Shown here: piece after piece, positions 4,545 through 7,535 of the stretch
Layout of the letters: each line of letters starts with the position of its first letter
How positions within the stretch are numbered: the first letter of the stretch is position 1
DNA from: Burkholderia cepacia
GTDB taxonomy: Bacteria; Pseudomonadota; Gammaproteobacteria; Burkholderiales; Burkholderiaceae
Direction of reading: 5' to 3'
Assembly: GCF_029962485.1 (NCBI RefSeq)
Contig: NZ_CP073637.1
Coordinates: 1,116,001-1,180,000 of the forward strand
Length of the DNA: 64,000 bases
Translations under genes and position numbers: made by a program
The notes under the pieces: generated by a model
What the model was told of the DNA's origin: nothing
The model's database searches: none
Seen by the model: the letters and a program-made list of their open reading frames with translations, nothing else

Positions 4545-5045
4545 TCAGCCGCGCTTGCGCGTGTAGACGACGAACGCATAGCCGAACGTGTTCGGCGCGG
4601 CAGCCTGGTGCGCATCGCGCGACACTTCCTGCCAGTGTGCGGCGTCGGGTGCGGGGAACGACGCATCGCCGTCGAAGTCGGCATCGATCTCGGTGACGAC
4701 CAGCTTGTCGGCGAGCGTGAGGCCTTCCGCATAGAGTTGCGCGCCGCCGATCAGGAATGCCTCGGGCACGCCGTCGTGTGCGGCGAGCGTCAGTGCATCG
4801 GCCAGCGACGTGACCGTGTCGCAGCCGTCGAAGCGCCTCGCTGCGTCGCGCGTGACGACGATATTGCGGCGGCCGGGCAGCGGCCGGCCGATCGATTCGT
4901 GGGTCTTGCGACCCATCACGATCGGCGCGCCCATCGTCGTGCGCTTGAAGAACGCGAGATCCTCGGGAAGTTTCCAGGGCAACTGGTTGTCGCGGCCGAT
5001 GATGCCGTTGCGGGCACGCGCGACGATCAGGGTCAACGTCGTCAT
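4545..5045 (-). CDS. folA: dihydrofolate reductase
   Basis: The 166-aa enzyme reduces dihydrofolate to tetrahydrofolate with NADPH and is the trimethoprim target. Family motifs are [22 protein letters not shown] at the N-terminus (the Asp/Glu active-site strand), [16 protein letters not shown] for NADPH binding, and [12 protein letters not shown] in the second nucleotide-binding loop. The start is ATG 5045; a longer reading adds 63 residues without family similarity. It is usually functionally coupled to thyA, which here lies 2.5 kb away on the other strand, separated by a sigma-54 regulatory unit. Confidence 0.95.
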
Positions 5046-5226
5046 GAAGGTCGGGGAAGAGGAAAACCGGAATGGCGCCGATTCTACCGGAACGGCGGCG
5101 CGCATCGGCTTTCGCGTGCTGCGCGCCGCGACGCTCGAGGCATTGCGTCGCGGCGACGAACCGAATAAAAAGAGTGCCCGCCGGGGGACGGAGCACAAAA
5201 CCTTTTCGTGTTGCGGGAGCGGCGAT

Positions 5227-5306: not shown

Positions 5307-5633
5307 TCACTGGCGCGTATTGCTCTGCGCGTTGCCTTCCATTGCGTGCTGCACGTCGCCGGGTTGCGGTATCGGAAGCGGCATCGGCAGTTGGGGTGGC
5401 GGCGGGATCTCGTCCCACAGCGTGACGGTTGACTTGCCGGTTGGCAGCGGTTGCGGTGCCGACACGGTCACGATGCCGAAACCGTTGCCGTGCTGCAGGC
5501 TCGGCGCATTTTCGGCCAGCAGTATCGCGCGATCCGGTTTTGCGATTTCATCCGCGCGGGCCGGTGCTGGCGGGCCCGCGGCCGAGAGCGCAAGCGCTAT
5601 CGGCACGAAAGAAAGTAAAAGATGTTTGCGCAT
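5307..5633 (-). CDS. small secreted proline-rich protein, function unknown
   Basis: The 108-aa product starts with a clear Sec signal peptide (MRKHLLL, hydrophobic core, probable cleavage after ARA at residue 27) and is probably periplasmic or exported. The mature part, about 81 residues, is hydrophilic with a proline block PPPPQLPMPLPIPQPG near residues 77-92 and no cysteine. No family was recognised. The start ATG 5633 has a GGAGAC ribosome-binding site at 5641-5646. A sigma-54-type promoter is predicted 19 nt upstream of the start codon, and the divergent neighbour is a sigma-54 activator. The gene may thus be a dedicated target of that activator; this is inference. Confidence 0.75.
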   Translation of the reverse strand: MRKHLLLSFVPIALALSAAGPPAPARADEIAKPDRAILLAENAPSLQHGNGFGIVTVSAPQPLPTGKSTVTLWDEIPPPPQLPMPLPIPQPGDVQHAMEGNAQSNTRQ

Positions 5634-5662
5634 GGTCGCTGTCTCCGGTCGTTTACGTATTC

Positions 5663-5678
5663 AGCGAAATACATGCCA
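5663..5678 (-). promoter_or_regulatory. predicted sigma-54 (-24/-12) promoter for the small secreted protein
   Basis: On the minus strand the sequence reads TGGCATG-TATT-TCGCT, against the consensus TGGCACG-N4-TTGCW. It has two mismatches and exact spacing between the invariant GG (5677-5676) and GC (5665-5664). The expected transcription start, about 5652, leaves a 19-nt leader that contains the ribosome-binding site. The fit of promoter, leader and Shine-Dalgarno, beside a gene for a sigma-54 activator, supports the call. Confidence 0.6.
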
Positions 5679-5743
5679 CCGTGCCGGGACCGTTGTCGCG
5701 ACAGCGATTCGCGCTCAAGCGTTGCGAATTGTGGCCGAAAAAG

Positions 5744-5768
5744 CCTGAAAATGTTTCAGGCCTGAAAC
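5744..5768. promoter_or_regulatory. overlapping palindromes, candidate activator (enhancer) site
   Basis: CCTGAAA-ATG-TTTCAGG (5744-5760) overlaps the perfect 16-bp palindrome GTTTCAGGCCTGAAAC (5753-5768). There are thus three CCTGAAA half-sites in 25 bases. It lies about 92-116 bases upstream of the predicted transcription start of the small secreted protein, the usual distance for sigma-54 enhancers, and about 370 bases before the activator gene. Binding by that activator is inferred, not shown. Confidence 0.55.
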
Positions 5769-6137
5769 GAGGGGGCTTGGGAATACTGCGGATTCAATCG
5801 ATACGCTTCAAGGATGAAAATCGGCCCGTGTGTTGATGAACGAACACTTCGCTGCGCATGTGCTATGTGCAGATGATTGACTTGCATCGACCTCCTGAGC
5901 GATCGGGCCGCATCGCCGTCGGCGCTGAAACGGGTTTGTCGTATTCGGTGCCTATAACTAAGCTGTCTTGACCAAAATATAACTGGACGCAAGATAAGCG
6001 CCATCATGCGAGGCTTTGTCGTTGCCGAGCATCGGCATGGCGAATCGAGCCACCTCTGGCTGACCCGATTCGATCCTTTTCGCACGAGACCTGACGTGCG
6101 CGGCAATCGTTAGACGGTTGATGAACGGGGTGAGCAT

Positions 6138-7535
6138 ATGGGAGCCGATCAGCGGCACGTGATCTACTATTCGCGCGAACCGAACGACGCGTTGCGCGGC
6201 CATTTCGACGAATGCGGCTGGCGCGTCGATCTCGCGGAGACCGTACGTGATGTACGGCGCGTCGTGCAGCACGGTGTGGCAACCGCCGGCCTGCTCGATT
6301 TCTCGCCGGGCTTCAAGCCCTCGGACCTGCGCGAACTCGAATCCTGCCTGAGCATCCAGCACATCGGCTGGATCGCCGCGACGCGTCGCGGCCAGTTGCA
6401 GGACGCGACGTTGCGCCATCTCATTCGTGACTATTGCTTCGACTATGTGACGATGCCGTACGAGACGTCGCGGATCGTCGAGACCGTCGGTCATGCGCAC
6501 GGCATGGTCGCGTTGACCGAACCCGTTGCGCCGCCCGTCGGCGCCGGGCGCAGCGAAGGCGAGATGGTCGGTACCTGCGATGCGATGCTCGGGCTCTTCA
6601 GGACGATCCGCCGCGTCGCGGCGACCGATGCACCGGTGTTCATCTCCGGCGAATCGGGTACCGGCAAGGAACTGACGGCGGTTGCGATTCACGAGCGTTC
6701 GTCGCGCACGCAGGCGCCGTTCATCGCGATCAATTGCGGGGCGATTCCGTCGACGCTGCTGCAGGCCGAACTGTTCGGCTATGAGCGTGGCGCGTTCACC
6801 GGTGCGAACCAGCGCAAGATCGGCCGCGTCGAGGCCGCCAACGGCGGCACGCTGTTTCTCGACGAGATCGGCGATCTGCCGCTGGAAAGCCAGGCAAGCC
6901 TGTTGCGCTTCCTGCAGGAAGGCAAGATCGAGCGGCTCGGCGCGCACGTGTCGGTGCCCGTCGATGTGCGCGTGATCTGCGCGACGCACGTCGACATGGA
7001 AGTCGCGTTGCGCGAAGGGCGGTTCCGCGAGGACCTGTTCCATCGCCTGTGCGTGCTGAAGATCGAGGAGCCGCCGCTGCGCGCGCGCGGCAAGGACATC
7101 GAGGTGCTCGCGCGCCACATGCTCGAGCGTTTCAAGGGCGATGCACATCGCCGCCTGCGCGGTTTTTCGCCTGACGCGGTCGCGTCGCTGTACGGCTATT
7201 CGTGGCCGGGCAACGTGCGCGAGCTGATCAATCGCGTGCGCCGCGCGATCGTGATGTCGGAGGGCCGGATGATCACCGCGGCCGATCTCGAGCTGAACGA
7301 CTTCGCGACGCTTGCGCCCGTGTCGCTGCTGGAGGCGCGGGAAGCGGCCGAGCGGCAGGCGATCGAGCAGGCGCTGCTGCGCCACCGCGGCCGTTTCGCG
7401 GATGCCGCGCGTGAGCTCGGTGTGTCGCGTGTCACGCTCTACCGGCTGATGTGCGCACACGGGATGCGCGATCGCGGCGACACGCTGGCAGGGTTTTCGG
7501 CGCCGTTGCCGGAGCTTCCTCACCACGCTTGCTAA
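6138..7535 (+). CDS. VpsR-like sigma-54-dependent transcriptional activator
   Basis: The 465-aa protein has three parts. An N-terminal domain of about 140 residues resembles a degenerate receiver as in VpsR ([18 protein letters not shown] at the start). A central AAA+ domain (about 145-375) has Walker A GESGTGKE at 171-178, an intact sigma-54 contact loop GAFTGA at 218-223, and Walker [15 protein letters not shown]-terminal Fis-type helix-turn-helix ([18 protein letters not shown]) follows near 415-440. VpsR relatives bind cyclic-di-GMP and control exopolysaccharide or biofilm genes; in Burkholderia the activator BerB is of this type, but orthology cannot be decided here. The start at 6138 opens with ATGGGAGCC. 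The divergent secreted protein gene, with a -24/-12 promoter, is the obvious candidate target. Confidence 0.85.

Follow-up and report, generated by a model that had tools for sequence, protein, structure and literature searches.

Among the closest described counterparts of the locus analysed here is BerB of Burkholderia cenocepacia, a c-di-GMP-binding activator of RpoN-dependent transcription which, in the available portions of the report, controls berA and hence the bep exopolysaccharide (PMC5552954). In Pseudomonas fluorescens PF07, the available parts of two papers describe BrfA as a c-di-GMP-sensing RpoN activator of the fap genes (PMC9207406, PMC13101488). A survey of Fap systems, as far as its text was accessible, gives the gene order as fapABCDEF and reports that Fap is frequent in Burkholderia, with the B. 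cepacia complex having no fap genes (PMC3792158). A later review, likewise available in part, lists B. cepacia among the Fap-encoding species (PMC6173800), contrary to the survey and to the loci presented below.

The locus reported here resembles the BerB/berA pair, as far as that is described in the accessible text, in that a sigma-54 activator and an RpoN promoter would serve matrix control; the activator, however, is paired with the probable lead gene of a Fap operon, whereas BerB controls berA (PMC5552954). The likeness to the PF07 system, judged from the same partial texts, lies in an RpoN promoter in front of a fap operon combined with a putative c-di-GMP-sensing enhancer-binding protein, but in PF07 brfA is located downstream of fapF in reversed orientation and fapA is the first gene (PMC9207406, PMC13101488). 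The gene order and the lack of fap genes in the B. cepacia complex match the loci examined here, while the accessible parts of the survey do not mention a lead gene or a divergent activator, both of which outlive fapA-F in the present data (PMC3792158). Finally, the activator shares a VpsR domain and an AAA+ core with VpsR of Vibrio cholerae (PDB 7v2b); the latter is reported, in the available text, to act without RpoN (PMC5552954), in contrast to the window activator with its intact GAFTGA loop and RpoN-type promoter. The main text of a study on rpoN in P. phymatum, as available, contains neither 'amyloid' nor 'fap' (PMC5979394), and among the open-access papers listed in the literature searches, none refers in its title or in the opening of its abstract to a lead gene of fap or to VpsR-like control of fap in Burkholderiaceae.

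The reading favoured here, at a probability of about 0.7, is that a Fap functional-amyloid operon is represented in the window by its regulatory head, the amyloid genes being absent, and that the VTLWDE part of the small protein has been kept for a Fap-independent role.

Organization of the locus

The window is the whole 64,000-nt stretch that was analysed, taken from a B. cepacia genome (G000) of 7.70 Mb in three contigs, designated C1 to C3. Its features are collected in Table 1. A preliminary description, made from the letters alone, had placed a -24/-12 element, a transcription start at about 5652, a 19-nt leader and a GGAGAC site in front of an ATG at 5633, and each of these was found exactly there, with the predicted start lying 12 nt beyond the GC of the -12 element. 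The same description had a divergently encoded activator with an intact GAFTGA loop, which was confirmed.

Table 1. Features of the small gene, its predicted promoter and the divergent activator gene in the window
Feature	Position	Strand	Basis
Small VTLWDE-motif gene	5633-5307	-	ORF, 108 aa
Invariant core codons VTLWDEIPPP, residues 70-79	5397..5426	-	VTLWDE in 81/81 loci
ENAPSLQHGNG, a decayed form of what is (L)DDxxLxxQRGG in fap-bearing relatives	5481..5513	-	Motif comparison
Ribosome-binding site GGAGAC	5646-5641	-	Sequence and promoter alignment
Sigma-54 -24/-12 element TGGCATGTATTTCGCT (TGGCATG-N4-TCGCT)	5678-5663	-	Motif and conservation
Palindrome GTTTCAGGCCTGAAAC, predicted activator binding site (enhancer)	5753..5768	.	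74 bp upstream of TGGC
VpsR-like sigma-54 activator, 465 aa: VpsR domain, AAA+, Fis-type HTH	6138-7535	+	ORF and Pfam
GAFTGA loop codons	6789..6806	+	Activator residues 218-223
Terminator-like hairpin and T run, gap between small gene and folA	5177..5192	-	Consensus match

Pfam searches of the activator returned VpsR (PF20161, 75.9 bits; cut-off 23.7), Sigma54_activat (PF00158, 227.8 bits; cut-off 20.2), AAA_lid_14 and HTH_8 (PF02954, 41.6 bits; cut-off 22). The three domains together with the intact loop place it among the VpsR-like sigma-54 enhancer-binding proteins. The genome contains two rpoN-type genes (C1:3146968 and C3:279870) with Sigma54_DBD matches above the cut-off. Control of the small gene by RpoN and the divergent activator is what the arrangement suggests, and by analogy with its relative BerB the activator may respond to c-di-GMP.

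The neighbour of the small gene on the minus strand (4545-5045) is presumably folA, and the gene that comes after the activator gene, from 7577, we take to be thyA; both were recognised in the list of open reading frames. The hairpin between the small gene and folA comes from a consensus scan that gave 2 matches compared with 1.3 expected from shuffles. An Rfam search gave no match. A second sigma-54-like site, TGGCGCTTATCTTGCG at 5988-6003 (-), is retained in most fap-less Burkholderia loci; located 370 nt upstream of the ATG, it was not taken up as the promoter of the small gene.

Conservation of the promoter, palindrome and gene pair

The -24/-12 motif proves little by itself. With one mismatch allowed, the window contains 1 match compared with 4.0 in shuffles, and genome-wide there are 15 exact matches versus 8 for the reversed pattern; the site is counted as more than chance because it is conserved across loci. 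A search for the small protein in 299 genomes of the family matched 89 with a single sequence and 131 with a profile. From the 89 non-own single-sequence matches, 80 were fetched, which together with the window gave 81 aligned loci.

The GG/GC sigma-54 site is present in 81/81 loci, in a search which demanded TGGC and GC. The preliminary description had named loss of these bases in close relatives as refuting its reading; no such loss occurred, and the sigma-54 promoter that it proposed is supported. It had mentioned palindromes as the usual binding sites of such activators and had seen none here. The palindrome GTTTCA-N4-TGAAAC, which the search did not demand, lies 74-76 bp upstream of the site at all 81 loci, with 12/12 bases in 77 of them and 11/12 in 4, and an ATG follows 41-46 nt after TGGC at every locus. 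The exact palindrome occurs once in the 7.7-Mb genome, as the window copy. All 14 named loci of B. cepacia-complex type, which overlap with the 81, carry the exact palindrome at a gap of 74 and the activator.

Another 20 loci contain the activator and were missed by the single-sequence search for the small protein, and 18 of these were analysed as one set. In all 18, a GG/GC site is accompanied by a palindrome that agrees at 11-12/12 bases and lies 74-75 bp away; here the site was chosen jointly with the palindrome in a 44-94-bp range, which makes this set less independent than the 81. Their small proteins contain (V/I)TLWDE in 17 of the 18 cases and VILWDE in L211. The fap-bearing L213 has SITLWDE and a fap-type motif, with the exact palindrome absent, and in L212, where the activator is present, no such sigma-54 site, exact palindrome or VTLWDE was found.

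The activator is divergently adjacent to the small gene in 78 of the 80 fetched loci; at L128 it is close by but points the same way as the small gene, and none was found at L086. In a genus sample of 41 genomes, 39 have both the activator and the small gene, and two (G134 and G187) have neither, in keeping with the earlier proposal that the VpsR-like activator is the partner of the small gene. Taken across the aligned loci, the comparisons show that the predicted promoter, the palindrome, their spacing, the activator and the small gene are conserved together.

Probable Fap genes behind the small gene in relatives

A link to Fap genes in relatives was absent from the preliminary description. 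Matches to fapA-F follow the small gene in 43 of the 80 fetched loci (Paraburkholderia, Trinickia, other genera and five Burkholderia loci), and they stand in the order of the Fap operon. fapD was found at 43 of the 80, each with matches to all of fapA-F, some of them cut by the end of the locus. The divergent activator is present at 41 of these 43 loci, the other two being L086 and L128. The best NCBIfam matches at L095 were FapA (1.7e-9), FapB (1.8e-20), FapC (3.9e-12), FapD (6.4e-59; also Pfam Peptidase_C39, 1.6e-23) and FapE (9.3e-11), and L116 gave a FapF match of 2.8e-107. Every Fap match falls below the NCBIfam equivalog cut-off (359 versus 700 bits for FapF), and the assignments therefore rest on best match and gene order. 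Its position gives the small gene the appearance of a lead gene in a Fap functional-amyloid operon.

The window itself is not classed as a Fap system. No fapA-F match was found at its locus, and FapF had no match in the whole genome, where C39 matches occur only in frames of 754 and 762 aa, unlike the 240-aa FapD; the genome-wide absence covers FapF and C39 domains, with FapA, FapB, FapC and FapE sought at the locus. A fap match within 9 kb is lacking at all 14 named loci, those of B. cepacia and B. cenocepacia included. Five of the 41 genomes in the genus sample had strong FapF matches (> 330 bits), all of them lying no more than 6 kb from the small gene, and four other genomes had weaker matches (140-150 bits) located elsewhere. 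Since the small gene and its switch are kept without the fibre genes, the small protein likely has a second job.

The small protein and its conserved core

The N-terminus of the small protein (MRKH / LLLSFVPIALALSAAG / ARA-DE) is signal-peptide-like by eye, and the protein is probably exported. It matched no Pfam or NCBIfam family up to E = 1, and the 120 homologues listed of 611 carry 'hypothetical'-type names or none, save two UniRef tags ('PRC-barrel' and 'Lipoprotein'); the earlier remark that no description of the protein was known thus holds among the sources searched. Its closest named relative is in Burkholderia sp. BCC1644 (95%), and other named matches include B. cepacia, B. cenocepacia, B. 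lata, B. seminalis, B. arboris, B. anthina, B. metallica, B. puraquae, B. aenigmatica and B. catarinensis, which suggests that the strain belongs to the B. cepacia complex. At L128 (genome G072) and in several other genomes of group g11, the profile of the small protein matched weakly a second time, about 6 kb away and on the opposite strand; in G072 this match is close to fapF.

VTLWDE is present in 81/81 loci with variable synonymous codons, and on that ground an RNA- or DNA-level cause of its conservation was rejected. The B. cepacia complex, represented by 20 loci, gave a dN/dS of 0.014 for VTLWDEIxPP and 0.38 for the whole gene; the signal-peptide-like part had 0.39, the middle 0.61 and the activator 0.046. 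For 12 other fap-less Burkholderia the corresponding values were 0.138 for VTLWDEIxPP, 0.81 for the signal-peptide-like part and 0.73 for the middle. Judged by these codon comparisons, the results show strong purifying selection on the VTLWDE core despite the absence of fapA-F.

These values bear on the possibility that the small gene is a neutral, decaying leftover of the loss of fapA-F, and that only the activator matters, for other targets. The fast evolution of the middle in both groups is what such a relic would display, as is the decay of the QRGG motif discussed below, but the dN/dS of the core, with its varying synonymous sites, is at odds with neutrality. Moreover, none of the fap-less Burkholderia loci among the 81 aligned has lost the site, the palindrome or the spacing, and these have been retained across several changes of fap state on the tree. 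We consider a relic quite improbable.

An AlphaFold model of the small protein had a mean pLDDT of 58.9 and a pTM of 0.15, with the best values around residues 71-90, and the protein is accordingly predicted to be largely disordered. Inspection by eye showed no evident signal peptide on the VTLWDE protein of several fap-less relatives, and this speaks against a single exported role throughout. The loci L194-L198, L202 and L203 (group g10) have a predicted VTLWDE protein of 64-66 aa starting with MALDSS or MARDSS, in which no signal peptide is evident by eye.

PspA is known to act back on the divergently encoded PspF, and by analogy the VTLWDE peptide may act back on the VpsR-like activator. 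Such feedback would fit with the activator and the VTLWDE protein being kept or lost together in the 41 genus genomes, with the survival of the core in the predicted 64-66-aa versions, and with a model whose disorder is least around residues 71-90. Most aligned members, however, start with a signal-peptide-like stretch (by eye) that would take the protein out of the cytoplasm, which speaks against feedback, and we regard it as unlikely. For the preferred reading, a lead gene retained for a Fap-independent role, the envelope or the matrix is the most likely place of action of the small protein at present, with feedback on the activator as the bolder option.

The QRGG motif and fapD

Fap-linked members of the small-protein family carry (L)DDxxLxxQRGG ahead of VTLWDEIAPPxPxP. 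The motif and fapD agree at 78 of the 81 loci, with both present at 42 and neither at 36; two loci have the motif only and one has fapD only. The two motif-only loci are L129, which retains the motif with fapD missing, and L121, whose DAGVFARQRER passes the looser motif pattern and fails the stricter one. The locus with fapD only (L085) has N in place of the first D, a variant missed by the pattern.

Fisher's test gives p = 1.9e-19 for the association of motif and fapD, a value that ignores kinship. A tree of 101 regulators (99 labelled) indicated about nine changes of fap state, at least four of them forced by well-supported branches. Among independent pairs, three of four agree and one does not differ (sign test, p = 0.25), and with kinship counted the association is thus no longer significant. 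Genome G205 serves as a natural control: the fap-linked copy L086, with all six fap genes, retains the motif, and the activator-adjacent copy L120 has lost it. The strict FapD-type pattern was also found in 24 of 43 FapE and 2 of 41 FapA proteins, and in none of 43 FapB, 43 FapC, 39 FapD and 7 FapF proteins; this occurrence in other Fap proteins is suggestive only.

A possible elaboration gives the small protein, as a seventh component of Fap, two modules, a FapD-read QRGG module for the fibre and a VTLWDE-PP module signalling back to the activator, in which case the sensor pair would survive loss of the fibre and steer a wider matrix regulon. We hold this two-module version to be rather improbable.

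Similar layouts elsewhere in the genome

The preliminary description regarded the two genes as a self-contained unit, with the small protein as the dedicated matrix or surface target of the activator. The strict pairing of the genes and the single occurrence of the exact palindrome in the genome are consistent with such a unit. Similar palindrome-75 bp-promoter layouts, however, occur before other genes of this genome, among them genes for Tad pili, repeat proteins and exopolysaccharide-type products. The pattern TGAAAC-N60-90-TGGCNNGNNNNTNGC has 8 matches, the one in the window included, compared with 0 for the reversed pattern, and across 46 Burkholderia genomes, which are kin and not independent, the TGAAAC-N60-90-sigma-54 pattern has 325 matches versus 23 for the control.

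The site at C1:1393690 precedes a polysaccharide-deacetylase-like gene (Pfam match just over the cut-off); GT2, YaiO and bactofilin domains are encoded by the upstream genes of that region. C2:29169 lies before epimerase, UGD and glycosyltransferase genes, and C2:30002, divergent from it, about 0.9 kb before serine/glycine-rich secreted-looking proteins, adjoining the VpsR-like paralogue L003. A further site (C3:533369) is situated upstream of Flp/Tad pilus genes at a distance of approximately 540 nt, and C2:531446, which has just the half-site, precedes the gene of a 266-aa protein that matched nothing in Pfam. At C1:2858668 (L159), found in a scan of 12 chosen regions only, a sigma-54 site and a palindrome-like element (11/12, gap 76) precede a long glycine-rich repeat protein.

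Two observations concern individual sites. At C3:533369-533626 (L166), two palindrome-like copies lie upstream of the pilus genes, and a leader of approximately 540 nt precedes the first flp gene. The repeats of the protein at C1:2858668 are GGGTS and HGNGGG.

Two further matches were set aside. C2:2502668 (L164), a TGAAAC-type half-site 86 bp ahead of the sigma-54 site of a prpB-like gene, was judged probably to belong to another activator, and C1:814229, inside a reading frame, was judged a chance match.

The genome encodes three VpsR-like paralogues, 57-60% identical to the window activator. One of them, L002 (60% identical), is probably BerB, judged by its position. This genome contains an exact copy of the 16-base core of the published berA site (PMC5552954). 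In the region upstream of berA, the only counterpart of the palindrome seen by eye is a diverged half-site, TGAGAC, at a roughly corresponding distance.

Neither 'self-contained' nor 'dedicated target' is supported by these results: palindrome-like elements with similar spacing precede the deacetylase-like, glycine-rich and Flp/Tad genes and genes beside a VpsR-like paralogue, the activator has three paralogues, and in related genera the same promoter precedes the fapA-F matches. An activator serving one protein in a two-gene unit is, in our assessment, distinctly unlikely. The broader suggestion of a role in matrix or surface physiology was supported. From the sites found, we infer that the activator may drive a matrix regulon through similar palindromes.

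Model and implications

Under the favoured reading, a regulatory head that has lost its amyloid genes, the VpsR-like activator would at high c-di-GMP bind GTTTCA-N4-TGAAAC and open the RpoN promoter. In fap-bearing relatives this promoter would yield the small protein together with FapA-F, and the small protein would be a seventh Fap component, its QRGG motif read by the C39 peptidase FapD. In the window the small protein would be made alone, with the terminator-like hairpin before folA. After the loss of fapA-F, the VTLWDE part would have been retained to serve independently of Fap, most likely in the cell envelope or the biofilm matrix.

The new finding is the persistence of the lead gene, the promoter, the palindrome and the activator at loci where no fap genes were found. 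The results indicate that the switch and the lead gene were retained, and the fibre given up, in the B. cepacia complex, for which a lack of fap genes had been described. The decay of the QRGG motif, which accompanies the loss of fapD, bears on what the peptidase FapD reads. Together with the VTLWDE peptide and the shared palindrome-75 bp-RpoN layout, it offers handles on the co-ordination of the biofilm matrix in Burkholderiaceae.
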